DNA of 64,000 bases from Marinobacter sp. LV10R510-11A (GTDB lineage Bacteria; Pseudomonadota; Gammaproteobacteria; Pseudomonadales; Oleiphilaceae), in contig NZ_LT907980.1 in NCBI RefSeq assembly GCF_900215155.1, forward strand, positions 2,170,001-2,234,000. The letters run 5' to 3'. Numbering within the stretch: the stretch's first letter is position 1; each line of letters starts with the position of its first letter. Below are positions 3,558-37,032 of this stretch, piece after piece. The notes below the pieces were generated by a model. That model did no database searches. It saw nothing but the letters and a program-made list of their open reading frames with translations, and was not told the DNA's origin. A program made the translations under genes and the position numbers.

Positions 3558-3562
3558 TACAG

Positions 3563-3604
3563 ACGTACAAAAAAGCCGAGCTAAAGCTCGGCTTTTTTGT
3601 ACGT
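3563..3604. terminator. Bidirectional terminator between phoH and the chemoreceptor gene
   Basis: A 42-base perfect palindrome: an A-run, stem GCCGAGC, loop TAAA, stem GCTCGGC, then a T-run, extended outward by ACGTAC/GTACGT. The genes on either side converge on it, so it serves both. Confidence 0.95.
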
Positions 3605-3612
3605 TCTATAAG

Positions 3613-5307
3613 TTAGACACGATAGCGACTGACCTGATCTGACATATCTTTCGCCAGCCCTTTAAGACGCTGTGTTGCCGCTCCAGCCCGACGAGTTCCC
3701 TGAGCAGTCTGTTCTGTGATCGCAACAATCTCGTGAACATTCTGGTTAATGGTTTCAGAGACGCTGGTCTGCTCTTCTGCAGCACTGGCAATTTGAGTAT
3801 TCATTTCATTTATAGTGCCAACCGCTTGGTTAATCCGCTGCAGGGCTTCATCCACCTGACGGGTTTCCGCAACTGTGGCTTCACTGCGTTCACTGATCGA
3901 CCCAATCAGCTTCACCGCATTGTCGGCTCCAGCTTGCAGCCGCTCTATCGTTTCCTGGATTTGCTGAGTGCTCTTTTGAGTCCGGCTCGCCAGCGTGCGA
4001 ACTTCATCCGCAACCACCGCAAACCCGCGCCCAGCATCCCCAGCACGAGCCGCTTCGATGGCCGCATTCAGGGCCAACAGGTTTGTCTGATCGGCAATCT
4101 CCCTTATTACTTCTAATACGGTGTCGATCTGGCGGGAGTCGGCACCCAGTTTCTCAATAACCTTAACCCCTTCTTCAACCTGTTCGGACAGGCCACCGAT
4201 CACCACAATGGTCTGGTGCACCAAGCCCTGAGCATCGCATACCTGAACATTGGCGTGGTCTGCTGCATCGGAAGCTTCGCTGGCATTGTTGGCCACTTCT
4301 TGAGCTGTGGCCGTCATCTCGTTCATGGCCGTCGCCACTTGGTCGCTCTCAGACTTCTGCCGTTCTACGCCTTGCTCGGTCTCTCCCATTACCTGATTCA
4401 GCTCCTCAGAAGCTTCGTTCAGCGTGCGGGTGGATGAGAGAACCCGCTCCACCAGTCCGTGGACCTGATCGGCGAAGCTGTTGAAGGCCGTCGCTAGCTG
4501 GCTCAACTCGTCCTTGCCGCTTATCTCCAATCGGCGGGTCAGGTCACCATCGCCGTTGGCGATATCGTTCATGGCAGACACTGCCGATTTCAGCGGCCGG
4601 ATTATGCTGCGTACAACGATCAGGGCTAAGAACACGATGATAGCCAATGCGATCAGTGAGGTGGTTATTGAACCGATTACCGCACTGCCTAGGGAGTCCC
4701 CGACTTTCTTGTCCATAGCGACGACCTGCTTTTCCAGACCGTCTACCCAAAACCCCGTGCCAATCATGATATCCCACTTCGGAATCATCACTGCATAGCC
4801 AAGTTTCGGCGCGACTTCGCCTGTTCTCTCGTTCTGCCACTCATAGGGAACATAGCCACCGCCGCTACGAGCCACTTTTACCAGTTCGCGGATCAGGTAA
4901 GTACCATTGGGATCTTGAGAGTCCCAGAGGTTCTTGCCTTCCAATGCCGGCTTTGCGCCATGCATAACTGTAAGGCCACTGGTGTCAGTGGCGAAGATAT
5001 AGCCCACACTGCCCGAATCATCGAAACGCATCTGGCGAAGAATTTCCCACGCTTGCTTGCGCATTTCAGGATCATTAGCCGATCCTGGCTGATTGTATAG
5101 ATGGGCGATTGAAGTACGTGCTAGCTCGAGATAGTTTCTGAGTTCCTGGCGTTTACTCGCCTCCATATCTGTTGAAAACCCCGCTACAGCTCCGTCACCG
5201 ATGCTCCGGGCTTGATTCAGGTTATACGTAGTCAGAAACACGGTAAGCACGATCACGGGCACGAGTGCCAGCAACAGCACCCTTGTCTGAATGGTCAGGT
5301 TTTTCAT
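3613..5307 (-). CDS. Methyl-accepting chemotaxis protein, single-Cache type
   Basis: 564 residues. TM1 (~10-30), a periplasmic single Cache domain (~35-190; note the pattern [17 protein letters not shown]...[11 protein letters not shown]), TM2 (~205-230), a HAMP domain, and a cytoplasmic signalling domain with the conserved hairpin tip [20 protein letters not shown]. Cache_2-type sensors often bind small carboxylates; the ligand cannot be told from sequence, though the next genes are for a TRAP carboxylate-type transporter. No C-terminal CheR-docking pentapeptide is seen. Confidence 0.93.
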
Positions 5308-5443: not shown

Positions 5444-6796
5444 TCAGTCCTTAAACTGAGCCTTGTCTAGGCCGTGCTTTTTCATTTTGTCGTAGAGAGT
5501 TTTGCGGGCTACTCCCAGCTGTACCATGGTGTCTTTGATACTGCCTTGGCAAGCATTGAGGGCGCTGGTCAGCACCGAATGCTCAAAGCTGTCCATCATC
5601 TCTGTGAGGGTTCGCCGGCCGCTTACATCGGCCTTGGCTGCTGGTTCATTGTCATCCAGCGCCGCTGGGCCAAGCAGCACATAACGCTCAGCCAGGTTGC
5701 GCAATTCGCGGACATTTCCGGGCCAGGTGTGATGCATTAACCGTGCAGCTTGGCTGGCATCCAGTGGAATACTCTCCCGATCATAACGAGCGGCGGCGAT
5801 CAGCACAAAGTGATGGAACAGCATCGGTATATCTTCTTTGCGCTCGCGCAACGACGGAATGTCCACTTTCACCACATTCAGCCGATAATAGAGATCGGGG
5901 CGGAAGTTGCCTTCGTCGCTAAGCTGTTTGAGATCCGCTTTGGTGGCCGCAATAATGCGCACATCCACATCCTGCACCTGATTGCTGCCCAGGCGCTCCA
6001 CCTTTTGCTCTTCAAGCACCCGAAGCAGCTTGATCTGCAGCGGCACGGGCATGCTTTCCACCTCATCTAAAAACAACGTGCCCCGGTGGGCATGTTCAAT
6101 TTTACCAATACGGCGTTTGTCAGCCCCGGTGAACGCCCCCGCCTCATGGCCAAAAAGCTCGCTCTCAATCAGGTTTTCCGGCACAGCGCCGCAGTTAATC
6201 GCCACAAAGTTGTGGGCACCCCGCGGGCTGTTCTCGTGGATATATCGAGCAAGCGCATCCTTGCCGGAACCTGTCTCGCCAAACAACAGAGTGTTGGCAG
6301 AAATATCCAGAATCGGCGTGATGGTATCCATCACCTTCTTCATGCTGGGTGAGTCCCCAAGAATCCTGGGGCCAGGCCTGGCCAAGTGGCGTAGCTGAAC
6401 CTTGAGCCGACGGTTCTCCAAGGCAAGATGCCGCTTTTCCAGCGCGTGCCGCAGTAGCTCAATCAGCTCATCGTGGTTGAACGGCTTTTCTATAAAGTCA
6501 TAGGCGCCCTGCTGCATGGCAGAAACCGCCGTACTAATATCGCCCTGACCGGTCAGGATGATGACGGGAATGGTGTTGTCCAGAGCGTGAATCGCGCTCA
6601 GCATCTCAAGCCCGTCCATCCCCGGCATGTTGTAATCACACAGCACCACACCGTTGTATTCTGCGGTAATGGCGGAAAGGCCCGATTCTGCATCCGCAAA
6701 ACAGCTCACAGGCAGATCTTCAAGGATGAGCGCTTGGGCAATGGCCTTGCGAATGTGAGGCTCATCATCCACAAAGATTACCGAGGGTTCTGTCAT
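5444..6796 (-). CDS. dctD: DctD-like sigma-54-dependent response regulator
   Basis: 450 residues in three domains: receiver (1-120, phospho-acceptor D54 in VVLCDYNMPG), AAA+ sigma-54 activator (~145-375, Walker A GETGSGKD, the sigma-54 contact loop GAFTGA, LFLDEVESM), and a Fis-type helix-turn-helix (~405-445). It overlaps the sensor kinase gene by 4 bases (ATGA), so they are translationally coupled. Its likely target is the TAXI-TRAP operon, which has a -24/-12 promoter. The exact ligand class is inferred. Confidence 0.9.
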   Translation of the reverse strand: MTEPSVIFVDDEPHIRKAIAQALILEDLPVSCFADAESGLSAITAEYNGVVLCDYNMPGMDGLEMLSAIHALDNTIPVIILTGQGDISTAVSAMQQGAYDFIEKPFNHDELIELLRHALEKRHLALENRRLKVQLRHLARPGPRILGDSPSMKKVMDTITPILDISANTLLFGETGSGKDALARYIHENSPRGAHNFVAINCGAVPENLIESELFGHEAGAFTGADKRRIGKIEHAHRGTLFLDEVESMPVPLQIKLLRVLEEQKVERLGSNQVQDVDVRIIAATKADLKQLSDEGNFRPDLYYRLNVVKVDIPSLRERKEDIPMLFHHFVLIAAARYDRESIPLDASQAARLMHHTWPGNVRELRNLAERYVLLGPAALDDNEPAAKADVSGRRTLTEMMDSFEHSVLTSALNACQGSIKDTMVQLGVARKTLYDKMKKHGLDKAQFKD

Positions 6797-25961: not shown

Positions 25962-26040
25962 ATCGGGTAGCCGAGGGTATCTAACCCTCAGCCCCCACAA
26001 CACCCTGCATGCGGGTCCGCACAGGGCGTTTCACTTAGGA
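25962..26040 (-). ncRNA. Group II intron domains V and VI, 3' splice end
   Basis: Domain V hairpin GCCCTGTGCGG-ACC-CGCATGCAGGG followed by TGTTGTGGGGG, then domain VI with its unpaired branch-site region TTAGATA and the terminal ACCCGAT. Domain V is the catalytic core of the ribozyme and appears intact here, in contrast to the shortened relics further right. Confidence 0.8.
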
Positions 26041-26709
26041 TAGTGAAGCTTGATCCAACCATCACGCAACGAATAAAGCCCCTCAGATTTCAAATATTTT
26101 AAAGACAATGCTTGATTGATCCCTGGAGTTTTAGCGCTACGCCATGGCCCTTTGCTGGTAATGCCACACGCAACTGCTGACTGCACATGCACACCTCGTC
26201 TCATCAAGTTTCTTACCTTGGTTCGTGGCTTGCGCCACTGTCGCCAGTAAGCCATTCTGACCCTGCGCCGAATCCATTGATCTAGATCGACACAGAGTTG
26301 ATAGCCTTTGGCGATACCAAAGTAATTGATCCAGCCACGTAAGTACTGGCTCAGCTTGAAGAGTTGGTATCGCATTGATACACCCCAGTTGCGATTCGTT
26401 AGTTTCCGAACTTGTTGTTTGAACTTATTCAACGTATTCGGGTGCCAATGAATGTTCCCTGATCGGAAAGTGAATCCCAGGAACTTACTATCATTGGTTT
26501 TAACGACGCGGCTTTTGATCGTGTTAACGATCAATTTCAAACGGCGTTGCAGGTATTTACTGATACTATGAAGTACACGTTCGCCTGCACGCTTACTCTT
26601 CACTAAGATCGTAAAGTCGTCTGCGTATCGGGCGAATTTGTGGCCTCGCTTCTCAAGTTCTTTGTCTAGTGGGTCGAGCATGATGTTCGCCAATAGTGGC
26701 GAAAGAGGC
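26031..26709 (-). pseudogene. ltrA: Group II intron reverse transcriptase, C-terminal part
   Basis: Continues the split RT gene: after the conserved PQGGPLSPLLANIM it has the catalytic FARYADDF box, the thumb, and a maturase (X) domain with LSQYLRGWINYFGIA and the class-C-typical RRRVRMAYWRQWRKPRTK. About 225 residues, in frame with the N-terminal part at 30185-30847 once the inserted element is removed; together ~444 residues with all RT motifs present. Confidence 0.9.
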
Positions 26710-26741
26710 CCACCTTATGTATAGCTACTCGTTATGCAAAG
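26710..26741 (+). repeat. Left terminal inverted repeat of the RIT element
   Basis: 32 bases beginning CCACCTTATGTATAG and ending GTTATGCAAAG; complements 30138-30169 at 31 of 32 positions (G at 26724 differs). Confidence 0.9.
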
Positions 26742-26811
26742 TGGATCGCTGTATCCGCGTAGTGCGTACTGACTTGGAGAGAACACTTTGCATAACGAGG
26801 TGATGCGTATG

Positions 26812-27822
26812 CTACAACGTGCTCAACCACGAGAGAAGATTACGGTCCTTTGTCCAATGGGGTAAAGTGCTGGTGACGATGTCTGGATACGCGCCCTCAA
26901 GCGCTTTGCGCTTCATCTCGGTATCAGCCCTGGCATAGACCTCTGTGGTCGCGATATCAACGTGTCCCAACAGATCGCGTATATAGATAAGGTTCACTCC
27001 CGATTGAAGTAACAACATCGCCTTGGTGTGTCTTAAAATATGCGGCGTTACCTTTTCGGGAATGAGTGGTGACGTTGAACGAGCTTGGCATGCATATTTG
27101 CCGAGGATGTACGAGATTCCAGCACGTGTCATCTTGGTACGCATGCGATTGGAAAATAGAGGCTGATCAGCCACACCCGCAAGTTCGCTAAAAGCCTCGC
27201 TAAAATACTGCTTCAGCAGAGATTCGGTGTTGAGCATTAACGGCACCTGCCGTGTTTTCCGCCCTTTTCCTGTCAAAGTAATAATGGCTGGCGGATCAAA
27301 CCTGACATCACGGACCCTGATATCAACCAGCTCTTGCACACGCGCTCCTGTATCATAGAGAACGCTGAGTAACGCCAGATCCCGCCGTCCAGAAGACGTT
27401 GACAGATCTGGTTGAGCCAGTATCAGTGTTAATGCCTCAGGCGACAGGTGCGACACCGCTGCCGCAGGTGCTTTTTTGCTGGGAATTGACAAGATCTGCT
27501 GATATTGAAGTAACCCTGCTGGATCCTCAATATGCATGTACCGATAGAACCCATGGATGCAGGCGAGTCGCTGATTACGAGTCGAGATACCGTTGTGCCG
27601 TTGTTGTTCAAGCCAGTCCAGAAAGCCCAGCACCAATGACTTGTCGATGTCCTTTAAGCACAGTTTATCCGCAGATCGGTGGTGCGATTGCTGGCAATAG
27701 ATCAACAACAACTTGAACGTGTCACGATAGGACTTGATAGTATTCGTGCTTACGTTTCGCTGTCCAGGTAGATAGATCCCCAGATAGTGCGACAGCGCCT
27801 TGGCAAAATCAGTTGGTTTCAT
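26812..27822 (-). CDS. ritC: Tyrosine recombinase, third gene of the trio
   Basis: 336 residues from the ATG giving MKPTDFAKALSHYLG, chosen because GGGAGGAG stands 6 bases upstream; it overlaps the second gene by 14 bases. Catalytic set intact: Arg in YDTGARVQELVD, HILRHTKAM, LGHVDIATTEVYARAD. The three proteins are thought to act together in integrating and excising the element. Confidence 0.88.
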   Translation of the reverse strand: MKPTDFAKALSHYLGIYLPGQRNVSTNTIKSYRDTFKLLLIYCQQSHHRSADKLCLKDIDKSLVLGFLDWLEQQRHNGISTRNQRLACIHGFYRYMHIEDPAGLLQYQQILSIPSKKAPAAAVSHLSPEALTLILAQPDLSTSSGRRDLALLSVLYDTGARVQELVDIRVRDVRFDPPAIITLTGKGRKTRQVPLMLNTESLLKQYFSEAFSELAGVADQPLFSNRMRTKMTRAGISYILGKYACQARSTSPLIPEKVTPHILRHTKAMLLLQSGVNLIYIRDLLGHVDIATTEVYARADTEMKRKALEGAYPDIVTSTLPHWTKDRNLLSWLSTL

Positions 27823-28798
27823 TGCCATCTCCTCCCAGTGTTGGAACAATGTCACCAAAAGCCCGCTCGGATTTGGCTGTAATATCTGGGAAGAGTTCTG
27901 CGGTCAGGCGTAGGTAATGCGCTGTATCCTGGAACGAATAGTGACCCATGTAAGTCTTTAGAATCGGCAAGTACGCGGCAAGGTCTGCACCTTCGAGAAC
28001 CCATCGCCTCAGGCAGTGAACGCAGTGTGTATGCCTGAGATCATGCAGCCGAGGACCCTTTCCCCAGCCCCCGTGCGATATACCTGCTTGCCAAAGAAAA
28101 CGCCTGTAATTCTTGTAGACGTTCCCGATGGTCATCGGATTGCCAGTTGGCGAAGGGAAGAAGTAGGCTTGATCATCCGACAGGGTGTGCGCTGCCTGGG
28201 CGTAGCGGCGGCAACGATCCAGGTTATTCATCGACATGGGGACCAACCGGTCTTTGTTGAACTTGCCATCGATGATGGTCAGAACACCTTCGTCGAGGTC
28301 AACGTCACTCCGGTGCAAATTCAGTGCCTCAGAAAGGCGTAAACCACAGCCGTACAGCAGACGGAACAGCAGCGGCATGATGAGGTGCCGCAATGGCACT
28401 TGCGAGCAGTAATGGCAGGCGTCGACTTTGCTCAAGATCGCAGTGACTTCTGCGTCGCTGAATATATAGGGTTGGTAGTGCTCCTTGCGCGGCAGTATTT
28501 TTGGCGGTAACACATAGGATGGAAGGCCGAGTCGTGTCATATACAGGGCTAGCTGCCTCAGGACCCCAGCTCTGTTTTGCTGGGTGGCGAGCGCTTCATT
28601 GGGTTTGCGCTGGATCCAGGCATGGGCCAGATCCCGAGTAATCACGGTTTCTGTATAACTCTGGCTGATACAGAACTGATCAAATTTGTAGAGAGACCAA
28701 GCGCTGGTGGTGTATTTGTACCCCACAGCGCGTTTCTCAAGGATGCAGCCACTGATGAACTCATGCAACGAACTCTGAAAGGGAAGTTTTCTCATCAT
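27809..28798 (-). CDS. ritB: Tyrosine recombinase, second gene of the trio
   Basis: 329 residues from the ATG giving MMRKLPFQSSLHEF, which overlaps the stop of the first gene by 4 bases (ATGA) with GGAG just upstream. Catalytic residues: Arg in YGCGLRLSEALNL, HDLRHTHCVHCL, MGHYSFQDTAHYLRL. Apparently functional. Confidence 0.88.
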   Translation of the reverse strand: MMRKLPFQSSLHEFISGCILEKRAVGYKYTTSAWSLYKFDQFCISQSYTETVITRDLAHAWIQRKPNEALATQQNRAGVLRQLALYMTRLGLPSYVLPPKILPRKEHYQPYIFSDAEVTAILSKVDACHYCSQVPLRHLIMPLLFRLLYGCGLRLSEALNLHRSDVDLDEGVLTIIDGKFNKDRLVPMSMNNLDRCRRYAQAAHTLSDDQAYFFPSPTGNPMTIGNVYKNYRRFLWQAGISHGGWGKGPRLHDLRHTHCVHCLRRWVLEGADLAAYLPILKTYMGHYSFQDTAHYLRLTAELFPDITAKSERAFGDIVPTLGGDGNETN

Positions 28799-30027
28799 TC
28801 CATCTCCCCGGCAGAATCCAGCGCACACTGACGTAGCTGTTGGATATCCACCTTCAAGTAAACAGCCGTGGATTCCGTACTGGCATGACCAAGAATGTCA
28901 GAGATGATTGGCAGTGGTGTGTTCTCTGCCAACAGACGGCTCGCCAGTGTATGGCGCAAGGAGTGCATGCCCTTTTTCTTGTTTGGCGAAATGGGGATTC
29001 TGGCAATCCTCATGTACTTAATGATGATTTGATGCAGGCGATGTTCATCTGAGAACGGTTCCAGAGGTGCTAGATGTCGCAGAAAAACGTAAGGGGAGTC
29101 GACTTTTGGGCGTCCATTTTTCAGATACTCAATGATGGCCCAACCAATATCTGGCAGTAGTGGCAAATGAACCAAGGCCCCTGTTTTTGATACTCGCAGT
29201 TCAATCCGGCTATCTGCCCAATTGAGATCCGTGAGTTTCAAGCGCTTGATGTCAAGTGTGCGAATACCCAGGCGAGCTGCTAACAGAATGATGGCGTAGT
29301 CTCGCTTGCCAGCGGGGTTGCCCCGATCAATGGCCTGAATCAGTTTCTCGACGTTTTCTTTGGTCCAGACTGATGGGATCCTGTTTTGTTTCCGCGCCTT
29401 TACCGTTGGTACCGCATCAAGCAAGGGCTGTGCAGGCACATCCTGCAGAATTAGAAAACGCAGAAAACAGCGCAGGCCACACAGCTGTAGCTCGACGCTC
29501 TTGTAGCTATAGCCCAGTAAGGTTTTGACGTAGTCAGGAACGTGTCTAGCAACGATATCTTCAACCTGCCACACGCGTTGTGACTCAACGAAGGCAAGAA
29601 ATCTATCTGTCGCTTTTCTGTAATGATTGCACGTGACACCTGAATACGCCCGTTCCTGACAATGAGTCTCGAAGCGCTTCAACCATTGCTGGAAAGGCTT
29701 GCCGTTCAGCCGTATTTTCTGCTTGAAATAACGACGTAATATACTGCCGTGTTGCTGGAAATCACCCAGCATTCTGACGATTCGTAGTTGGTTGATCAGT
29801 GACTGAGTCAATGCGCCCGTTCTTTCCAACTCTGAAAAACCGTACTTAGCGTCAAGGAAGCGCATCCCAGCTTCTTCGCTAAAACCGGATAAGCACTCGT
29901 TATCGAGGAAGCTTGCTATGTGCTTCCAGGCTCTGCGATACCCGGCAATCGAACCCTCGGTGTAATGCAATCGGTGCAGTTCTTTCTCTAGACGATGAGT
30001 CAACTCATCAAATGTAAGCACGGACAT
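28795..30027 (-). CDS. ritA: Tyrosine recombinase, first gene of the trio
   Basis: 410 residues, the longest of the three, as is usual for the first RIT gene. N-terminal SAM-like region to ~190, catalytic domain with Arg in ARLGIRTLDIKRL, HSLRHTLASRLL, LGHASTESTAVYLKV. It is the promoter-proximal gene; its promoter must lie in the ~110 bases between it and the right inverted repeat. Confidence 0.88.
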   Translation of the reverse strand: MSVLTFDELTHRLEKELHRLHYTEGSIAGYRRAWKHIASFLDNECLSGFSEEAGMRFLDAKYGFSELERTGALTQSLINQLRIVRMLGDFQQHGSILRRYFKQKIRLNGKPFQQWLKRFETHCQERAYSGVTCNHYRKATDRFLAFVESQRVWQVEDIVARHVPDYVKTLLGYSYKSVELQLCGLRCFLRFLILQDVPAQPLLDAVPTVKARKQNRIPSVWTKENVEKLIQAIDRGNPAGKRDYAIILLAARLGIRTLDIKRLKLTDLNWADSRIELRVSKTGALVHLPLLPDIGWAIIEYLKNGRPKVDSPYVFLRHLAPLEPFSDEHRLHQIIIKYMRIARIPISPNKKKGMHSLRHTLASRLLAENTPLPIISDILGHASTESTAVYLKVDIQQLRQCALDSAGEME

Positions 30028-30137
30028 GGTTACTGACTCCTGCGTTAATGGGAGTCTCCATTCTCACCACAGCAGTCAGGTTTTATGCAAAGTCAATCAG
30101 ACGAGAATACAGCTACCTGCTGCTCTCCAGCGCAATA

Positions 30138-30169
30138 CTTTGCATAACGAGTAGATATACATAAGGTGG
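30138..30169 (-). repeat. Right terminal inverted repeat of the RIT element
   Basis: Partner of 26710-26741, one mismatch in 32. It runs directly into the near-palindrome described next. Confidence 0.9.
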
Positions 30170-30198
30170 CATATGAAAAGCTTTTCATATCCCACCTT
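30163..30198. repeat. 36-base near-perfect palindrome at the right RIT junction
   Basis: AAGGTGG, then CATATGAAAAGC / GCTTTTCATATC, then CCACCTT: arms of 18 bases with one mismatch. The left arm belongs to the inverted repeat of the element and the right arm to the interrupted RT gene. Inverted arms around a spacer are the usual form of a tyrosine-recombinase core site, so this may be the attachment junction. It is absent from the left junction. Confidence 0.8.
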
Positions 30199-30847
30199 GA
30201 GGAACACTCTCATGACTTTCACTATAGAGCTGGTTATCGATAACCCCAGCTCGGAGATAACGCTTAATCAATTTAAGAAGCCGTTTATCCTTCACTTTGT
30301 AGCCAAGGTACGTCATCAGTAAATCATGGTTAACTCGATCAAAGAACTTAGACAGATCAACATCAACAGAAAAACGGCGACCCGTTTTGATGATGCCTTG
30401 AACCTGCTTAACCGCTTGCTGCCCATTACGATTTGGACGGAACCCGAAGCTATTGTTCGAGAAGTCTGGATCGAAGATGGGAGTTAGTATTTGGGCAATG
30501 GCTTGCTGAATAACACGATCAGTGACCGTGGGTATCCCTAATTGGCGTTTGCCGCCATCAGGTTTATCTATTTCAACACGTCTGACCGGAAAGGGATAAT
30601 AGAGACCTGTTTCCAGTTCCTCAACGACCTCTTTCCAACGGCCACACCTTGCCCAAGAGGGGAACTCATCAACGGTCATCCCGTCGATGCCAGCCGCCCC
30701 TTTATTGGCTCGAACGCGTTTCCATGCCGCCTGAAGGTTTTCAGGTTGCAACGCTTGTCCGAGTAGATCTTCGCTAAAGGCTGGCTTCATATCCATACGC
30801 TGAATCACGTCATCACCGGACGGTGTTCGTGTGTTCAAGTCTGTCAT
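30185..30847 (-). pseudogene. ltrA: Group II intron reverse transcriptase, N-terminal part
   Basis: Starts at the ATG preceded by GGAGGA (MTDLNTRTPSGDD) and contains RT motifs 0-4: NKGAAGIDGMTVDEF, RRVEIDKPDGGKRQLGIP, DPDFSNNSFGFRPNR, VDVDLSKFFDRVNHD. It ends ESVPQGGI-stop because the recombinase element is inserted; the remainder lies at 26031-26709. Unless the element excises, no RT can be made. Confidence 0.9.
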
Positions 30848-30865
30848 GGCTCCTCCTTTATTCAA

Positions 30866-31382
30866 CTAAGTGTTCAGGCCTTCACCGTGTCCCAACCATT
30901 ACGATGGGCGTTTGGCTACTATGCCGTCTGCTGACTTCTGCTCAATCACCGGCGGGATTGCCCCCATCGGCGCTATCGGTGTCCACCTCGTTCGCTCGCA
31001 ACCGCCGATGGCAACGGGTGCGCCCAGGCTTGATCGACCAGTGTCCTGACTGGTAATTGACCGATCGCTCGTTGAGCAGATCCCGATGCGTCGGACCGCC
31101 CCAGATAAGAACATGAACTTTCACTGCACAACTGCATCATTTACGGTGGCCGTCAGATCACGTGGCTTCGTCGTCTTGTGCCAACTCGCCTCCGGCCTAC
31201 GCCTCATATGATGTTCTTGTTCATCAGCTCGCAGCTTTGCTAGCGGCTTCCTCCAGACCGCGCCTCGCGGGTTGGCCCTTGCCATTCGCTAGTGGTTAGC
31301 GTTCAATCGGTAAAACCGGCTGAACGGTGATCTTTCCACAGGGGACTTTCACCCCATTAGCTCATGCCCATGCTGGGCGTAC
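30866..31382 (-). ncRNA. Group II intron 5' ribozyme region (domains I-IV start)
   Basis: No gene. Begins GTACGCCCAGCATGGGCATGAGC, includes GTGAAAGTCCCC and many short complementary stretches, and runs to the RT start. Parts of it (CAGTGAAAGT, CCGACGCATCGG, ATGATGCAGTTGTGCAG) recur in the miniature copies at ~33.1 and ~34.0 kb, which is how those were recognised as intron derivatives. Confidence 0.75.
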
Positions 31383-31455
31383 ACAATACGCGCCACTCGG
31401 ATGCCCTTTACGCCGCTTCGCTCTGTAAAGGCCACCGGTGCGCTCAGCGTTAACG
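31383..31455 (+). repeat. attC site 3 (right part, split by the intron)
   Basis: ACAATACGCG, then GCCCTTTAC / GTAAAGGC around CGCCGCTTCGCTCT, then R'' GTTAACG. The rest of its R' box should lie on the other side of the intron at ~25961, where the IS91 end now adjoins. Confidence 0.75.
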
Positions 31456-31463
31456 AGCTTCAT

Positions 31464-31907
31464 ATGATCGGAACATTGGAAGACCTAAAAGATAAGATTG
31501 CTGAATACTGTGCAAATTATCGGCACCCTGACTTAGAGGCCTTCACATTAGGCCCTCTGTACGATTTGTTTCCGGAGCAAGAAGGCGGCACGGTAGGTGC
31601 TGAACGCGAATGGAACCAAACTTGGCCGAGTAACGGCCAGGCTGGAGTATATGCATTTCTCGATAGTGATGGCACCTTGATCTATATCGGGAAGTCATCA
31701 ATGAAGAGCTCGGTTAGTGCGAGATTGAACGCATACACCAGATACGGCCCCGAGAAAAATTGTAAACTAAAGCACGATGGTTGGAATGTTCAGCCGCGAT
31801 ATGTGTTCATAATTGGTGTCCCTCGAACCACGTCATTTGAGGCCGCGGCTCTGGAAGAGTTCTTGATCCGAGAAATTCCAACCTCTGATAATGTGAACGG
31901 GATTTGA
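31464..31907 (+). CDS. GIY-YIG nuclease-domain protein (cassette)
   Basis: 147 residues from the ATG giving MIGTLEDLKDK, 9 bases past R''. The GIY-YIG pattern reads GVYAFLDSDGTLIYIGKS at ~61-78; a later Arg (SARLNAYTRY) and a Glu in AALEEFLIREI are candidates for the catalytic Arg and metal-binding Glu. Small stand-alone GIY-YIG proteins have no fixed role: repair, restriction or mobile-element nucleases. It ends 12 bases before an intron remnant inserted in its attC R' box (CGTTA). Confidence 0.75.
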   Translation: MIGTLEDLKDKIAEYCANYRHPDLEAFTLGPLYDLFPEQEGGTVGAEREWNQTWPSNGQAGVYAFLDSDGTLIYIGKSSMKSSVSARLNAYTRYGPEKNCKLKHDGWNVQPRYVFIIGVPRTTSFEAAALEEFLIREIPTSDNVNGI

Positions 31908-31919
31908 GAGCTTCGTTAA

Positions 31920-32290
31920 TCGGGTAGCCGAGGGTATCTAACCCTCAGCCCCCACAACACCCTGCACCGATGCGTCGGACCGACGGTTCCGCACAGGGCG
32001 TTTCACCGGGAATGGTGAAGCCTGATCCACCCATCGCGCAGCGATACCAATCCCTCGGCTTTCAGGTAGTCATTCGACAGAGCCTGTTGAATGCCCGGAG
32101 TTTTGGAACTGCGCCATGGACCTTTACTGGTGATGCCACAGGCCACGGCCGACTGCACGTGAACACCCAACCTCATCAGATTTCTCACTTTGGTGCGTGG
32201 CTTGCGCCACTGTCTCCAATAAGCCATCCGGACGCGACGGCGGGTCCTGAAGAGCTGGCAGTGCATCGACACACCCCAGTGCCAGTTTTA
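31920..32290 (-). mobile_element. Truncated group IIC intron (3' part)
   Basis: Reads inward from the 3' end (ATCGGGTAG on the plus strand) through domains VI and V into the end of an RT gene, then stops matching near 32,290. Its domain V tip is enlarged by about 20 bases containing CCGATGCGTCGGACC. It occupies the R' box (CGTTA) of the GIY-YIG cassette. Sequence divergence from the large intron shows it is a separate insertion. Everything 5' of the RT C-terminus is lost, along with most of this attC. Confidence 0.8.
32003..32287 (-). pseudogene. Group II intron RT fragment (maturase end)
   Basis: Last ~75 residues: RRRVRMAYWRQWRKPRTK through SLRDGWIRLHHSR, closely matching the RT of the large intron. 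Just upstream it reads GVSMHCQLF, a segment ~30 residues earlier in the intact protein, so an in-frame internal deletion has also occurred. Confidence 0.85.
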
Positions 32291-32336
32291 CTAGCGGCTT
32301 ACTTCCGGCCGGCGTTTCGGAGACCGCTCTCCAGAT

Positions 32337-32355
32337 AGTAACGCTTTACGTTACT
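32337..32355. promoter_or_regulatory. Candidate operator of the higBA unit
   Basis: Perfect dyad AGTAACG-CTTTA-CGTTACT, 25 bases before the toxin start. HigA antitoxins repress their own promoter through such dyads; assignment is by position. Confidence 0.55.
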
Positions 32356-32379
32356 AGTGTGTTGCGTCATTATTACCCC

Positions 32380-32658
32380 ATGATCATAACGTTCAAGTGT
32401 AAGGACACCGAGAAGTTGGCAAGCGGTCGCCGCGTCAGGCGCTTTGTTAATTACGAGCGCGTTGCCTTGAGGAAAATTCGGCAACTCCAGGCTGCAAGCA
32501 AGCTGGATGATCTTAAAGTTCCGCCCGGTAATATGTTGGAGCCGTTGCATGGTGACCGCCAAGGTCAGCACAGCATTCGAATCAACAGGCAGTTCCGGGT
32601 TTGCTTCCGCTGGATCAAGGCCGGTGCGGAAGAGGTCGAAATTGTTGATTACCATTAG
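32380..32658 (+). CDS. higB: HigB-family mRNA interferase toxin
   Basis: 92 residues from the ATG giving MIITFKCKDTEKLASG, the conserved start of HigB/RelE-type toxins; the ATG 21 bases earlier is less likely. Motifs RRFVNYERVALRKIRQLQ and a C-terminal QFRVCFRWI...VEIVDYH, which includes the catalytic basic/aromatic residues. It would cleave mRNA on the ribosome. Toxin-first order with the antitoxin 10 bases downstream is characteristic of higBA. Confidence 0.93.
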   Translation: MIITFKCKDTEKLASGRRVRRFVNYERVALRKIRQLQAASKLDDLKVPPGNMLEPLHGDRQGQHSIRINRQFRVCFRWIKAGAEEVEIVDYH

Positions 32659-32668
32659 GGGGTAATTC

Positions 32669-32992
32669 ATGCGCAACATTGAACCCATAACGCCAGGCGA
32701 GTTACTGAAAGAAGAGTTTCTTGAGCCGATGGGCATTTCTCAATATCGCCTCGCTAAAGAAATTGGCGTGCCTGCCCAGAGAATAGGCCAGATTATTGCG
32801 GGTAAGCGTTCGATAACCGCAGACACTGACCTGCGACTGTGCCGCTTCTTTGGTTTGTCTAATGGGTATTGGCTGCGGACTCAGGCAGCCTACGACACAG
32901 AGATTGCGGAAGAGGCTCTTGAGGGCCAGTTGAAAAAATATTCGTCCATGGAACTCGGTGTCAGAAATTGGGCACAGGGCATAATCGGGTAG
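32669..32992 (+). CDS. higA: HigA antitoxin, C-terminus altered by an intron relic
   Basis: 107 residues, XRE helix-turn-helix (~20-75; SQYRLAKEIGVPAQRIGQII, ITADTDLRLCRFF). The last three codons ATA ATC GGG TAG lie on the junction: the intron relic begins at ATC, so the tail IIG and the stop codon are supplied by intron sequence. The core antitoxin is complete, so it is probably still functional. Confidence 0.93.
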   Translation: MRNIEPITPGELLKEEFLEPMGISQYRLAKEIGVPAQRIGQIIAGKRSITADTDLRLCRFFGLSNGYWLRTQAAYDTEIAEEALEGQLKKYSSMELGVRNWAQGIIG

Positions 32993-33160
32993 CCGGGGGT
33001 ATCTAACCCCCAGCCCCCACAACACCCTGCACCGATACGTCGGATCGGCCCAGATAAGTACATGCACTTTCACTGCACAACCGCATCATTTACGGTGGCC
33101 GTTAGATCACGCGGCTTCGCGGGAGGCCGCCCCATTAGTTCATGCCCATGCTGGGCGTAC
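32984..33160 (-). mobile_element. Miniature group IIC intron relic A (~177 nt)
   Basis: Has both intron ends (5' GTACGCCCAGC, 3' CTACCCGAT on the minus strand) and domain VI (CTGGGGG-TTAGATA-CCCCCGG), but no RT and only part of domain I; the 5' strand of domain V is missing and replaced by GGCCGATCCGACGTATCGG. It should be unable to splice. It sits inside the R' box (GCATA|AC) of the higBA cassette. Confidence 0.8.
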
Positions 33161-33186
33161 ACAAACGGCTCCGCCGGGCGTTAACC
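33161..33186 (+). repeat. attC of the higBA cassette (right part)
   Basis: ACAAACGGC-TCC-GCCGGGC and R'' GTTAACC, with the R' part (GCATA) on the other side of relic A. Very short. Confidence 0.65.
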
Positions 33187-33234
33187 CTTCAATGCACCTT
33201 GCCGAAACTACGTCATTGACGTATATTTATATTC

Positions 33235-33549
33235 ATGTATACAGTCATCGAAACCCCAACATTTGAAGAAGACGCCCGAAAAATTTGGTCAGATGATGAG
33301 CGAAACGCTTTCTTTGCCTGGCTTGCTGCTGACCCGGAAGTTGGCGATGTGATTCCTGGTAGTGGCGGGTGCAGGAAGGTTCGGTGGTCTACTGCAGGCA
33401 CAGGAAAGCGAGGTGGGGTACGTGTTATCTACTTCACCCGATTGGCAAATGGAGAAATCTGGCTATTGGTGATCTACAAAAAAGCCGCCAGAGAGAACAT
33501 GCCTGTTCACATCCTGAAGTCAATTCGCGAGGTATTGGAAAATGAGTAA
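33235..33549 (+). CDS. RelE/HigB2-type toxin
   Basis: 104 residues, RelE superfamily, close to the HigB2/RelE-like toxins with start MYTVIETPTFEEDARKI and the segment GGCRKVRWSTAGTGKRGGVRVIYF, and LLVIYKKAARENMP. Predicted ribosome-dependent mRNA endonuclease. It overlaps the antitoxin gene by 8 bases. Starts 49 bases after R'' of the previous attC. Confidence 0.92.
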   Translation: MYTVIETPTFEEDARKIWSDDERNAFFAWLAADPEVGDVIPGSGGCRKVRWSTAGTGKRGGVRVIYFTRLANGEIWLLVIYKKAARENMPVHILKSIREVLENE

Positions 33550-33847
33550 AGTAACCGAGACGCTCAGCGCTGAAGAACTTGGCAATAAGCTGCTCCAGTC
33601 CGTGAAGGAGATGAAAGCGGGTAAGGCAGCCCGTATCACCGAAGTAGAGCCTAACGAGGTTGCCGAGGCCCGAAGTAAAACAGGGCTTTCACAGCGTCAG
33701 TTTGCCGACGTATTGCATATCTCTGCTCGTACTTTGCAAGAATGGGAGCAAGGTCGGCGCAAGCCTTCAGGTGCTGCCAAAGCACTTATTCAAATAGCTT
33801 TTCGCCATCCTGAGGTTATCAAAGAGGGCCTGACACTCAGGGGTTAA
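33542..33847 (+). CDS. HigA2-type antitoxin
   Basis: 101 residues with a C-terminal XRE helix-turn-helix (~60-85, LSQRQFADVLHISARTLQEWE). The toxin-neutralising part is N-terminal, as in HigA2/RelB-like partners. Its stop codon TAA includes the first base of the following intron relic, and the R' box GGTTA overlaps the end of the gene. Confidence 0.92.
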   Translation: MSKVTETLSAEELGNKLLQSVKEMKAGKAARITEVEPNEVAEARSKTGLSQRQFADVLHISARTLQEWEQGRRKPSGAAKALIQIAFRHPEVIKEGLTLRG

Positions 33848-34023
33848 TCGGGTAGCCGGGGGTATCTAACCCCCAGCCCCCACAACACCCTCCACCGATA
33901 CGTCGGACCGCCCCAGATAAGAACATGCACTTTCACTGCACAACCGCATCATTTGCGGTGGCCGTTAGATCACGCGGCTTCGCGGGAGGCCGCCCCATTA
34001 GTTCATGCCCATGCTGGGCGTAC
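33847..34023 (-). mobile_element. Miniature group IIC intron relic B (~177 nt)
   Basis: Same length, same ends and same internal deletion as relic A, differing at only about six positions (for example CTCCACCG versus CTGCACCG, AAGAACATG versus AAGTACATG). Occupies the R' box (GGTTA|AC) of the HigB2/A2-type cassette. The shared deletion means both descend from one shortened element. Confidence 0.82.
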
Positions 34024-34085
34024 ACACGGCGCTGCAGTTGACCGCTGCTTCGCTACACGGCAGCAACTGAGCTTTCACGTTATGT
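34024..34085 (+). repeat. attC of the HigB2/A2 cassette (right part)
   Basis: ACACGGCG, then GCAGTTG...CAACTG stem arms with an inner CGCTGC / GGCAGC pairing, and R'' GTTATGT. Confidence 0.7.
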
Positions 34086-34121
34086 ACGTATGAGGAGATT
34101 GACGCATGGAGAGCGTGATAA

Positions 34122-34445
34122 TTGATTGAAATTACCGTGGCGGTTGCACTGCTCGTTCTGTACTTGATTTTTAATCGTGGGGAGGCCTACGAGGTTCAGG
34201 CCGTATTCGCATCAGTCATCATGGCGACCTATCTGGTGGTCTACCTGTGTGTTCCTCCAAAACTGGCGATAACATCCACATATCTAGGCCAAATTTTTGG
34301 ATTTGTGCCGGCAGTGTCTTTTGGGGTGATTTTATTTCCGGACTTGAATGAGAGGCTTCCAGTCAGAGTAACGCGGTTTCTGGGTTGGCTTGGGTTGTTG
34401 CTGGTTCTCTCGATCCTCTGCGTGCTGAAGATTTTCATTTGGTGA
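34122..34445 (+). CDS. Small membrane protein (cassette), unknown
   Basis: 107 residues starting at TTG; an ATG at 34106 is out of frame and ends at once. Three to four hydrophobic segments (~4-16, 28-46, 54-75, 86-105) separated by short charged loops (FNRGEAYEV, PDLNERLPVRVTR). No recognised family. Cassette membrane proteins of this size are common and mostly unstudied. The weak start makes expression uncertain. Confidence 0.6.
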   Translation: MIEITVAVALLVLYLIFNRGEAYEVQAVFASVIMATYLVVYLCVPPKLAITSTYLGQIFGFVPAVSFGVILFPDLNERLPVRVTRFLGWLGLLLVLSILCVLKIFIW

Positions 34446-34480
34446 GGTTTTCGACCAACACAGGTGCTAGGTGCAGCAAT

Positions 34481-34567
34481 CACATAGCCAACCATTCAAG
34501 TACGTTCCCGGCCTGAAGGCCGCCCACCGGATGCCCTAGTCGGGCACCGCTCAGCTTGACGTTAAAT
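34481..34567 (+). repeat. attC of the membrane-protein cassette
   Basis: Starts around CACATAGCCAAC (R' slightly degenerate), followed by CATTCAAGTACGTTCCCGGCC..., GGCCTGAAGGCC, and ends with R'' GTTAAAT. Similar in length and interior to the next attC (CAAG-TTCGTTCCGGCC), so these two form a subfamily. Confidence 0.75.
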
Positions 34568-34882
34568 GCCGGTGATCGCGAAGTCCAGGGCACCTACTAT
34601 CTGGTCTCGATAGTGGGCTAATGAGCCTGCGGCGTTATTCAGTTGTTTGGTGGGCACTGAAGAAATTTGAGGTGTCAGCAAGAGAAGTCTCTGGCCATCG
34701 AAGGTGACTTCTGGCGTCAGGCCCTGCATCGTTTGGTTCCCGAAGGATGAGAGTCTGCCAAGCGGAATAACAATGCGCGTTGCCAGTTCAGATAAGTGCG
34801 GGCTTTGAATGTCGACTAAGTAGGGATAGAACGATTTGCTGGTTTTGCTAGGGTTGGAATATACGTCGAATTGGACCATCAA
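34562..34882 (-). CDS. ccdB: CcdB-family gyrase-poisoning toxin
   Basis: 106 residues matching CcdB: MVQFDVYSNPSKTSK near the start, YPYLVDIQS, TRIVIPLG, and the C-terminal region ending GALDFAITGI, where the CcdB tail (usually a Trp-Gly-Ile-like end) contacts GyrA. Its stop codon lies inside the R'' box of the preceding attC (GTTAAAT), so the toxin gene runs right to the cassette edge, opposite to the array direction. Confidence 0.93.
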   Translation of the reverse strand: MMVQFDVYSNPSKTSKSFYPYLVDIQSPHLSELATRIVIPLGRLSSFGNQTMQGLTPEVTFDGQRLLLLTPQISSVPTKQLNNAAGSLAHYRDQIVGALDFAITGI

Positions 34883-35124
34883 AACTCCCTAAATTCGTCG
34901 CCGAAGCAACCATGCTGCTCAACGAATTCGTTGTAACTTATGATGGCGGCGCGGTTCTCGTCGGCCCATTGAGCTGCTTTGCATTTTGCCAGCTCTTCTC
35001 TCAATGCTCGTTCTAGCGTGGCCGAGAGATTGATGTTCAGCGCTCGTGTTTTTGCAAGAAGGTCGCTATTCACGGACAGATTCGTTGCTTTTTTAGGAGA
35101 AGCTATATCGTAGAGCTCGTGCAT
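34879..35124 (-). CDS. ccdA: CcdA-family antitoxin
   Basis: 81 residues, ribbon-helix-helix N-terminus (KKATNLSVNSDLLAKTRALN) and an acidic C-terminal toxin-binding tail (WADENRAAIISYNEFVEQHG). Overlaps ccdB by 4 bases (ATGA), antitoxin first. The unit has its own promoter reading against the array; a likely one lies at 35130-35190, where direct repeats such as ATGCGTATATGCATGCGCAT occur. Confidence 0.93.
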   Translation of the reverse strand: MHELYDIASPKKATNLSVNSDLLAKTRALNINLSATLERALREELAKCKAAQWADENRAAIISYNEFVEQHGCFGDEFREF

Positions 35125-35195
35125 TTTGGCCTCCGCAGAGAACTATTTTCTGACGTTAATATAGTTTATGCGTATATGCATGCGCATTCAAATGC

Positions 35196-35281
35196 ATTTA
35201 ACACGTCAATCAAGTTCGTTCCGGCCCTCTAGGCCTCCATCGGACGCCCTTGTCAGGGTGCCGCTTATTTCAGCGTTAAAT
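35196..35281 (+). repeat. attC of the ccdAB cassette
   Basis: R' ATTTAAC, inner arms GGCCCTCTAGGCC and GACGCCC...GGGTGCC, R'' GTTAAAT. 86 bases. The R' box is the exact complement of the cassette's own start (34561), so the ccdAB cassette is complete: 34562-35275. Confidence 0.88.
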
Positions 35282-35346
35282 TCTTTGGCGCTCTCTCATT
35301 GACTATGATGTAATACGTTGTAGTTAATGAGTTTGAGGATACAGAA

Positions 35347-35619
35347 ATGAGTGTCACTACAGTCCGTCTACAGGCAGAAGTTGAGCAGCACCTGGAAGCA
35401 ATCGCTGGCCGGCTCCATCGGAGCAAAGGCTGGGTGATCAATCAGGCACTGTCGGAATACATAGAAAAGCAGCAGCTTGAGCAAGAGCGCTGGAATCAAA
35501 CGCTGGAGGCAATGGAATCTGCTGCCCAAGGGAAAGTAGTTGATGCCAGCGAGGTCCATAGTTGGCTCAATAGCTGGGGCACCAATAACGAGCAGGATGC
35601 GCCAAGGTCAGGTAAGTGA
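35347..35619 (+). CDS. parD: ParD-like antitoxin (ribbon-helix-helix)
   Basis: 90 residues: SVTTVRLQAEVEQHLEAIA and RSKGWVINQALSEYIE form a ribbon-helix-helix DNA-binding domain; the C-terminal half is the flexible toxin wrap (VVDASEVHSWLNSWG, typical of ParD/RHH partners of ParE). Overlaps the toxin by 4 bases. A promoter-like region with TTGACT...-17...TAATAC lies at ~35301-35325. Confidence 0.92.
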   Translation: MSVTTVRLQAEVEQHLEAIAGRLHRSKGWVINQALSEYIEKQQLEQERWNQTLEAMESAAQGKVVDASEVHSWLNSWGTNNEQDAPRSGK

Positions 35620-35900
35620 AACTGGTTTACACGGATGAAGCCATTAAAGATCTGAAACGCCTCAGGGAATTCATCGAAGTCCACAACCGTTCTGTGGCAG
35701 CCAAGATAGCTGCAGAGCTAGTTGTTGGCAAAATTGAGTTACTTCCAGAATTCCCCAAATTGGGAGTACCAGTTGAATTAGCTCCGGTGCCTGAATCAGT
35801 CCGCGACATGGTTTTTGGCAAGTATGTTGTCCGCTATTCAGTACATGCCAGTGCCATAATCATTCTCCGGATATGGCATGGTCTGGAAGGTGAACGATAG
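35616..35900 (+). CDS. parE: ParE-family toxin
   Basis: 94 residues starting at GTG, coupled to the antitoxin. KLVYTDEAIKDLKRLREFIEVHN, VGKIELLPEFPKLGVP and RDMVFGKYVVRYSV are the conserved ParE/RelE-fold features. ParE members usually poison gyrase. The cassette ends 3 bases beyond its stop at R'. Confidence 0.93.
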   Translation: MKLVYTDEAIKDLKRLREFIEVHNRSVAAKIAAELVVGKIELLPEFPKLGVPVELAPVPESVRDMVFGKYVVRYSVHASAIIILRIWHGLEGER

Positions 35901-35902
35901 CA

Positions 35903-35980
35903 ATTTAACCAGTCGCTGTTGTCGGACAATTTCTCCACCGCTTTGCTGCTCCAAAATTACCGCAAAGCTTAGAGTTAACT
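35903..35980 (+). repeat. attC of the parDE cassette
   Basis: R' ATTTAAC, stem arms CTTTGC / GCAAAG around TGCTCCAAAATTACC, R'' GTTAACT. The R' box matches the start of its own cassette (GTTAAAT at 35275). Confidence 0.85.
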
Positions 35981-36028
35981 ATTCAAGCGGCACTGGCGCT
36001 GTAATTACAGTGTAGGTATAGTGTAGTT

Positions 36029-36325
36029 ATGCAGCACTTGAAATTTGAATGGGATACCGTAAAAAGCGCTTCCAATCTGAGCAAGCATGGTGTCTCGTTC
36101 GAAGAGGCCAAGACTGTGTTCACAGACGAATTCGGTCGCCTGCTAAGCGACCCGGAGCATTCCGGCATTGCAGAAGATCATTTTCTCCTGCTGGGGTCCA
36201 GCCTTCGGTCGAAGCTGCTTGTTGTCTGTCACTGCGTCAGAGAAGCTGAATCTGTGCGCATCATCTCTGCTAGGAAGGCCAACAAGAACGAGCGACAAAT
36301 TTACGAGAGGTTCCGTTATGCGTGA
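36029..36325 (+). CDS. brnT: BrnT-family toxin
   Basis: 98 residues with the BrnT signature: FEWDTVKSASNLSKHGVSFEEA, VFTD, DHFLLLGSS, then VVCHCVREAESVRIISARKA and the end ERQIYERF. BrnT is a ribonuclease of RelE-like fold. It overlaps the antitoxin gene by 8 bases, toxin first. Confidence 0.95.
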   Translation: MQHLKFEWDTVKSASNLSKHGVSFEEAKTVFTDEFGRLLSDPEHSGIAEDHFLLLGSSLRSKLLVVCHCVREAESVRIISARKANKNERQIYERFRYA

Positions 36326-36527
36326 TCACTATGACTTTTCAGAATCCAAGCCCAACCCCTACGCAGCGAAACTGAAGAAGCAGGTTACGATCCGTCTCGA
36401 CGAAGACACTGTTCAGTATTTCAAGCAAATGTCGGAGCAGAAAGGAATCCCGTACCAAAGTCTTATCAATCTGTACCTCAGGGATTGCGCAGCTTCAAAC
36501 AGAGATCTTAAGCTTCAGTGGCAGTGA
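36318..36527 (+). CDS. brnA: BrnA-family antitoxin
   Basis: 69 residues from the ATG giving MRDHYDFSESKPNPYA; a longer frame exists upstream but lies inside brnT. Ribbon-helix-helix DNA-binding part QVTIRLDEDTVQYFKQMSEQKGIPYQSLIN as in BrnA. Ends 2 bases before the R' box (AGTTA), which is broken by an intron remnant. Confidence 0.93.
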   Translation: MRDHYDFSESKPNPYAAKLKKQVTIRLDEDTVQYFKQMSEQKGIPYQSLINLYLRDCAASNRDLKLQWQ

Positions 36528-36534
36528 TAGTTAA

Positions 36535-36593
36535 TCGGGTAGCCGGGGGTATCTAACCCCCAGCCCCCTCAACACTCTGCACCGATGCGTCGG
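36535..36593 (-). mobile_element. Group IIC intron relic C (3' end only)
   Basis: Domain VI and part of domain V (ATCGGGTAGCCGGGGG on the plus strand, then CAACACTCTGCACCGATGCGTCGGA) with no 5' half. It shares the CCGATGCGTCGG insertion with the other small copies. Located in the R' box of the brnTA cassette. Confidence 0.75.
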
Positions 36594-36634
36594 ATGCTTG
36601 CTGCCCGCAGCAATGCTGGGCTGGGGTGTTATGC
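36594..36634 (+). repeat. attC of the brnTA cassette (right part)
   Basis: TGCTTGCTGCC-CGCAGCAATGC stem and R'' GTTATGC; the left part has been lost with the intron deletion. Confidence 0.6.
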
Positions 36635-36652
36635 ATTTAGTCTGGAGGCAGC

Positions 36653-37032
36653 GTGAGCGATTATGACACGAGTTTTATGGCAGCCGATGGCCATGAGCGC
36701 GCACTTGAGTTGTTGCGGGGCGCGCCAAGTGGACACATGTTGACGCCGCATGGGCGGGGCCGCTGCGCCTTAGTTCCGAATATGCCCATTTGCTCGAAGG
36801 TATTGAGGCGGCTGATTCAGTAGCAGTGTCTGCGCACAAGTGGTTGTTCCAGCCCAAAGAATCTGCAATTGTGTTTTTCAAGGATGTCGAACTCGCGCAT
36901 GCAGCTATCAGCTTCGGTGGAGGCTATCTTGCAAAACCAAACGTCGGTGTACAGGGTTCCCGTGTGGCTGCGGCTAGCCCGATGGCCAACGTCAATCAAA
37001 TCTACGGGGCGATAATGGAGGCGTGTCGGTAA
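36653..37032 (+). pseudogene. Group II PLP-dependent decarboxylase, internally deleted
   Basis: A GTG start with GGAGG upstream opens a frame (SDYDTSFMAADGHERALELL...), then after a deletion and frame change the sequence reads WTHVDAAWAGPLRLS and DSVAVSAHKWLFQPKES. HVDAAW and SAHKW are the cofactor-aspartate and PLP-lysine motifs of group II decarboxylases (glutamate, tyrosine and aspartate decarboxylases). Only ~110 of ~400-500 expected residues remain, ending one base before the next gene. Clearly non-functional. Confidence 0.75.

Follow-up and report, generated by a model that had tools for sequence, protein, structure and literature searches.

The window analyzed here, a stretch of 64,000 nucleotides from Marinobacter sp. 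LV10R510-11A, contains two short intron remnants (relics A and B) that share the same internal joints and interrupt two different cassettes. Both are dead and descend, by deletion, from a non-autonomous group IIC-attC intron that had no ORF. The reading we favor, at a probability of roughly 0.55, is that such a dead derivative was copied between resident introns by homologous recombination. Intron remnants that no longer function could, by such a concrete path, increase in number within integron arrays. The sequence CCGATGCGTCGG at the relic junction is part of a dispersed repeat, a 16-nt insert that the analysis found again and again at a single exact position of domain V.

Two relics in two cassettes

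Relics A and B are identical at 172 of 177 positions, and the similarity (E = 6e-84) is hence not due to chance. They had been described at exactly these coordinates (Table 1), and the count of mismatches is five. Both begin with GTACGCCC, end with CTACCCGAT, and keep the two intron termini, domain VI, and two common internal joints. Missing from both are the RT gene, the putative EBS1, domains II–IV, and the 5' strand of domain V; with that strand gone, neither has a complete domain V. A scan of the region 31000-37000 gave no Rfam match on A or B at E<=1. The sequence that we take to be EBS1, GATGAACAAGAAC, was assigned solely by its complementarity to TTGT and, by sequence comparison, is not present in either relic. 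The alignment bears out the preliminary description, which had presented the two copies as IIC-attC intron relics that retain the termini and domain VI, lack the RT and the 5' strand of domain V, and carry identical deletions, with the same internal junction, at attC sites of two different cassettes.

Both relics sit in the R'' box of an attC, which is the gene-proximal box (bottom strand GT^T), at TTGT/T and opposite to the cassettes. The 5' exon reads TTGT before A and GTGT before B, and T follows both. The sampled loci, which were drawn by similarity to the relic and are not a census, contain 38 introns complete at both ends. Their 5' exon is TTGT in 29 and TGGT in 5; for one of the 38 (L059_3958), the 3' end is a projection. 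GTT runs across the exon joint in 36/38, and the full GTTRRRY, as the R'' bottom strand, is found in 15/38. The R' box named earlier must therefore be corrected to R''. IIC-attC introns have likewise been described as inserting at TTGT/T within attC, opposite to the cassettes (PMC7923331).

Relic-free loci, which had been proposed as a check, were found for both host cassettes. Nineteen higBA loci were read, out of 48 genomes with any match to a two-cassette query, and in 15 of the 19 a recognizable attC of one type begins at the position of relic A; in G100, higBA and the second cassette are neighbors, as in the window. These observations place relic A in its native surroundings. For the second cassette, the antitoxin ORF has HTH and MqsA-antitoxin Pfam matches and the toxin ORF has no Pfam match. 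A second copy of this cassette in the same genome is 99% identical and relic-free, and its attC is unrelated to the DNA behind relic B. When the source of that attC half was sought in 124 genomes, only the half itself was matched. The gene half and the attC half around B thus seem to come from different cassettes, so that B looks like the product of a crossover. As proof of a crossover, the attC swap is weakened by the altered attCs without introns in 4/19 higBA loci and by similar attCs that adjoin different genes.

Table 1. Features in the window and related loci
Feature	Position or loci	Strand	Remark
RT-type IIC-attC intron	25962..31382	-	Rfam domain I and domain V matches
Module (16 nt) of the RT-type intron, domain I	31083..31098	-	
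Intron 3' fragment, part of RT gene and module-bearing domain V	31919..32233	-	module 31967-31982
higBA cassette genes (HigB-like toxin, HTH antitoxin)	32362..32992	+	Pfam; broken at R'' by relic A
Relic A	32984..33160	-	177 nt
Relic A, 3' strand of domain V, domain VI, and 3' end	32984..33031	-	
Relic A, 16-nt module CGATCCGACGTATCGG	33032..33047	-	joint 2, domain I/domain V
Relic A, 5' terminal piece of intron domain I	33130..33160	-	ends GGGG (joint 1)
Remnant of native higBA attC	33161..33190	+	inner part lost
HigB2/A2-type cassette genes	33235..33847	+	Pfam; broken at R'' by relic B
Relic B	33847..34023	-	177 nt
Relic B, 3' strand of domain V, domain VI, and 3' end	33847..33894	-	
Relic B, 16-nt module CGGTCCGACGTATCGG	33895..33910	-	joint 2
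attC half downstream of relic B	34024..34085	+	unrelated to attC of relic-free copy
Copy C, intron 3' end behind BrnT-type cassette	36534..36596	-	broken inside module (36582-36596)
Apparent ORF-less lineage	L054, L055, L057-L061, L071, L078, L080, L092, L094, L095, L097-L100, L154		conserved domain IV stretch, several families

Parents, joints, and the 16-nt module

The parent type of the relics is visible in congeners as an ORF-less IIC-attC intron of ~765 nt that contains CGGTCCGACGYATCGG at two places, one in domain I and the other in the domain V bulge of two bases, and the G004 introns hold every element of it. The joints were defined by aligning A and B with 13 longer copies, all <800 nt, an alignment in which two blocks are missing from both relics. 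Joint 1 lies in a GGGG tract, where the 5' piece ends in ..CTAATGGGG and runs on into a 15-nt insert, GGGGCGGCCTCCCGC, that is found in domain I of some parents (6/38 introns besides A and B); the sequence here fits a deletion between GGGG tracts. Joint 2 is the 16-nt CGGTCCGACGYATCGG itself, and as parents of the G004 type have one copy in domain I and one in domain V, it was very probably left by recombination or slippage between the two. Copy C ends within the same module, and intron L058 has apparently lost a block between CCGACG repeats, which marks the inserts as weak points. The related domain V changes that had been noticed in copy C and in the 3' fragment at 31919 both turn out to be the same change, a module-bearing domain V, cut short in C; at the 31919 fragment, weak similarity may extend to about 32311. 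Two more 15-nt G+C-rich inserts of domain I, CCGGAACGCCGGCCG and the GGGGCGGCCTCCCGC already mentioned, are present or absent at fixed places (L055, L058, L059, L061, L097). The BrnT-type cassette is associated with an intron elsewhere, too: in the window (36029-36596), it carries the copy C remnant, and in G114 (L092 ~5760-6627), the corresponding end of the gene (75% over 276 nt) adjoins an intron of 561 nt.

Longer relatives are numerous. Besides A and B, the genome contains three RT-type copies and four ORF-less copies of 671-751 nt. If A and B are counted, its chromosome has nine 5' and twelve 3' intron ends, and partners for recombination therefore exist. One RT-type copy of 1930 nt has an uninterrupted 450-aa RT/maturase ORF (Pfam RT and maturase domain), while the RT gene is split in the window copy and in L056. 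The split in the window copy falls after VPQGG and is made by a block at 26815-30027 (minus strand). This block carries three consecutive tyrosine recombinase genes, all with a Pfam Phage_integrase match, and presumably resembles a recombinase-in-trio element. Another RT-type intron of this genome (L056, ~3390-3800) also has its RT gene interrupted at VPQG, but by a different insertion, ~430 bp long. Tyrosine recombinase genes that start MNANEHARFQALHQRYLTELTLRGKSPKTI and closely resemble one another recur near IIC introns (window, ~25880 downwards; L055, 1371-2285; L092, 9852-10742); the one in L055 is followed by a transposase-like gene.

ORF-less copies of 502-774 nt were also found in congeners, in members of two further families of the order, and on Photobacterium profundum and Glaciecola plasmids. 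A stretch of domain IV (up to 134 nt) is common, whole or in part, to 23/38 introns and is present in 0/11 RT-type copies, all of them 1411 nt or longer; it is also missing from four more introns, namely A, B, one of 492 nt, and that of Glaciecola. The stretch has no resemblance to RT genes, and its database matches comprised one plasmid record (P. profundum) and zero E. coli genomes. From these comparisons, the ORF-less copies look like a lineage in its own right.

The module occupies fixed sites in both domains and is present or absent at the same site in otherwise alike introns. In domain I, TGGGG-A-GATC stands against TGGGG-16 nt-GATC; in domain V, CGC-A-TGCAGGG stands against CGC-16 nt-TGCAGGG, with one base of the two-base bulge replaced. 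The net gain is 15 or 16 nt, the boundaries being ambiguous, and the module appears hairpin-like, with a stem of ~4 bp judged by eye. Outside introns, its context is GGGAGAGGGGTTGGGG-module-(A)GAGGGGG, a REP-like repeat that occurs with and without the module, and module-free copies are found in several of the same loci. The 15-nt core has 59 exact matches in 124 congeners, compared with 3 for the reversed control. Judged by position against intron matches, about 40 of the 59 are in intron pieces and 19 elsewhere; 13 of these 19 sites were read, and 11 belong to one REP-like family and two lie outside it.

Across the order, the 16-mer was found in 4/194 genomes, including the genome studied here. 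The other three have 8 exact matches, but the control has 5 in the 194, so that outside the genus only the contexts support the module: five are in a palindromic repeat of another type (..CCCGGCG..GC-module-GATCC and the like), two are GGGG/GAGGGG-like, and one is neither. Within its own genome, all eight exact copies are in intron pieces, and four one-mismatch copies are in a GGGG..GAGGGG setting; with two mismatches allowed, the core gives 33 matches and the control 29, which makes such copies uninformative. We take the module to be a dispersed insert and not intron sequence, on evidence that is weaker beyond the genus.

Domain V is the catalytic heart of a group II intron and among the most conserved parts of the ribozyme, and its bulge has a catalytic role. 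The insert is present there in 11/38 introns and absent in 25/38, with A and B unscorable; the domain I module is present in 19/38. Predicted foldings recover the bulge in a canonical domain V and give another closure for the form with the insert. A tree was built from domains I-III of 33 introns with the module excised, leaving out A, B, a 201-nt and a 1411-nt copy, and the Glaciecola intron. On this tree, the domain V insert takes 7 changes, at least 4 of them forced; shuffled labels gave a mean of 9.5 changes, with 26/500 shuffles as low as 7. A single origin, with the 11 insert-bearing introns as one clade, was rejected (p-AU 4e-6) in a test whose group was named after the insert already seen in the alignment. 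In G114, two RT-type introns are alike at 1936/1951 aligned bases (99%), and beyond 15 gaps of 1-3 nt, they are set apart by a 15-nt gap in domain V, which is exactly the insert. Repeated insertion into domain V is the plain reading of this pattern; recombinational transfer of intron 3' ends is an alternative that could yield part of it.

The insert-bearing intron of G003 has an uninterrupted 446-aa RT ORF, and the longest RT ORF of the insert-bearing G114 intron is 291 aa. Other insert-bearing introns occupy several attC sites of one genome. A broader idea, which we put forward tentatively and with more doubt than conviction, is that CGGTCCGACGYATCGG may be a very small site-seeking mobile hairpin that has repeatedly entered structured repeats, the bulge of two bases in domain V among them. 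On this view, either the ribozyme would tolerate the insert, or dead introns would propagate by recombination in integron arrays, and the 177-nt relics would be a by-product.

Origin of the two copies

In the account we favor, an ORF-less intron would have received the 16-nt repeat CGGTCCGACGYATCGG at two places, domain I and the bulge of domain V. The stretch between these copies would then have been lost as they slipped or recombined, and most of the remaining domain I would have gone in a second deletion, between GGGG tracts. The 177-nt form would have reached a second attC without retrotransposition, via homologous recombination with a longer resident intron, either as gene conversion or as a crossover within the ends common to both. 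The parents, the module copies, and the joints appear from comparison of the introns; the order of the deletions and the enzyme behind them, as well as the transfer to a second attC by recombination, are what we infer. Gene conversion and crossover between resident introns would in principle suffice. A crossover by itself leaves A unexplained, since the gene and attC around A are the native ones. Recombination between cassettes had been one of two options in the preliminary description, and it fits better given the many longer relatives in the genome and an attC behind B that is foreign to the 99% twin, although attC changes also occur without introns.

Sequence details common to A and B bear on their ancestry. 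The relics share one private base, found in none of the 12 rows having that position, and a T in the module that is otherwise seen in 2/19 domain I modules. This private base and rare module variant favor one reduced ancestor, if thinly, as they amount to few bases. Pairs of introns that share a deletion at different sites also exist in two other genomes: G114 has a pair of 560 and 561 nt (557/560 identical) with one shared domain I deletion and different flanks, and G106 has a pair of 502 and 526 nt with a third kind of deletion in common and, again, different flanks. Further observations weigh against copying by recombination. The G114 pair, 99.5% identical end to end with unrelated flanks, also looks like a fresh insertion, and the tracts common to the relics and longer introns are short (31-98 nt).

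The same two deletions could instead have occurred independently, if sister introns at both sites each lost the same pieces via the same direct repeats. Both joints do lie at direct repeats, breaks of this kind recur (copy C in the module; L058 apparently at CCGACG repeats), and the single private base and the rare module variant could already have been in sister parents. However, the GGGG joint (4 nt) and the 16-nt joint would each be needed twice, and we regard this explanation as unlikely. Less likely still is mobilization in trans, in which a deleted RNA would depend on a full-length IIC intron and its RT for binding or completion and would be inserted at TTGT/T. The exact intron ends, the TTGT-like sites, the uninterrupted RT/maturase ORF in the genome, and the deletion-sharing pairs at different sites in three genomes are what such a process would leave. 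But retrotransposition of A or B by the known rules is improbable, since the relics have lost domains II-IV and half of domain V (5') along with the putative EBS1, and only two copies were found in 124 congeners with at most 6 candidates scored per genome, both in this genome. The earlier proposal of spread in trans as a group II analog of MITEs is consequently not supported, as the relics lack the parts for reverse splicing and number two in a single genome.

The searches for more copies, which had also been suggested, bear on the same point. None of the 123 other congeners yielded a contiguous 177-nt copy at E<=1e-25 among at most 6 scored candidates per genome, and a set of 97 genomes yielded none among at most 8. 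Pairing 5' and 3' end patterns by eye in congeners gave one other short pair, in G114, with a different deletion; this 201-nt intron has a canonical domain V. The exact 5'-joint pattern matched no relic copy in the genome contigs, a set that near relatives may fall outside, and its single match was an RT-type intron with an unrelated deletion. Of the plasmid records, 366 match the relic, one of them covering at least 80% of the query, and among the matches listed (20 of 366), all are in 2-3 pieces.

A spacing of 863 nt and a common orientation would suit a duplication, in tandem or as a block, of a cassette together with its relic. This origin is refuted by the flanks, unless they were replaced later: similarity stops at the intron ends, and the cassette genes and attC halves beyond differ. 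Alignment of both copies with their flanks as one block had been named as the result that would make simple duplication sufficient, and since the flanks do not align, we consider that origin next to impossible. The relics might also be retained for a function, as a terminator, promoter, or RNA hairpin in a cassette operon. Relic A (175/177 nt) folds with a z of -2.2, 5/200 shuffles being as good, and outward promoters in IIC-attC introns are the subject of a published paper. Function would account for the keeping of the relics but not for their copying, and we give it very little weight. The relics and the insert open two questions to test: can domain V accommodate a hairpin in its bulge, and do introns in cassette arrays exchange cassette halves by recombination? 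Leon and Roy (2009) are said to have proposed a role for IIC-attC introns in the formation of cassettes.

Relation to known systems

A literature search returned no report of miniature IIC-attC introns or of a domain V insert; the primary IIC-attC papers were outside its scope, which makes it weak evidence of absence. Like MITEs, the relics are a short, internally deleted derivative with both ends, but only two copies were found and there is no evidence of transposition. The small dispersed repeats of cyanobacteria (Elhai 2008) reportedly include very short inserts inside other repeats. The module resembles them in being a very short dispersed insert within other repeats, and at 16 nt would be shorter. 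GTAG/CGTC REP repeats are described as short hairpin repeats, some set in other palindromes, with CGTC stems of 8-9 bp (PMC3733652). The module is also a short hairpin repeat, in some cases within palindromes, but its stem is ~4 bp by eye and it has no such tag and stem.

Among introns, the group III introns of Euglena chloroplasts are described in a review as 90-120 nt long and sometimes reduced to domains I and VI (PMC4424553). The relics are likewise very short remnants of domains I and VI with no intact domain V; at 177 nt, however, they are longer and show no sign of splicing or of trans-acting parts. According to the same review, ORF-less bacterial group II introns may act with a relative's protein and are rare in bacteria (PMC4424553). 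RT-type relatives are also present in this genome, whereas the RT-free domain IV stretch, in 23/38 sampled introns, contrasts with that rarity. The closest comparison is with the group IIC-attC introns of the S.ma.I2 type. The window RT-type copy has the Rfam domain I and domain V matches and a sister copy the RT and maturase domain, and the TTGT/T site in attC and the orientation opposite to cassettes agree with the description cited above (PMC7923331). Compared with these introns, relics A and B are without an RT gene and have lost domains II-IV, the putative EBS1, and one strand (5') of domain V; their parents are set apart by the absence of an ORF and by inserts of 15-16 nt.
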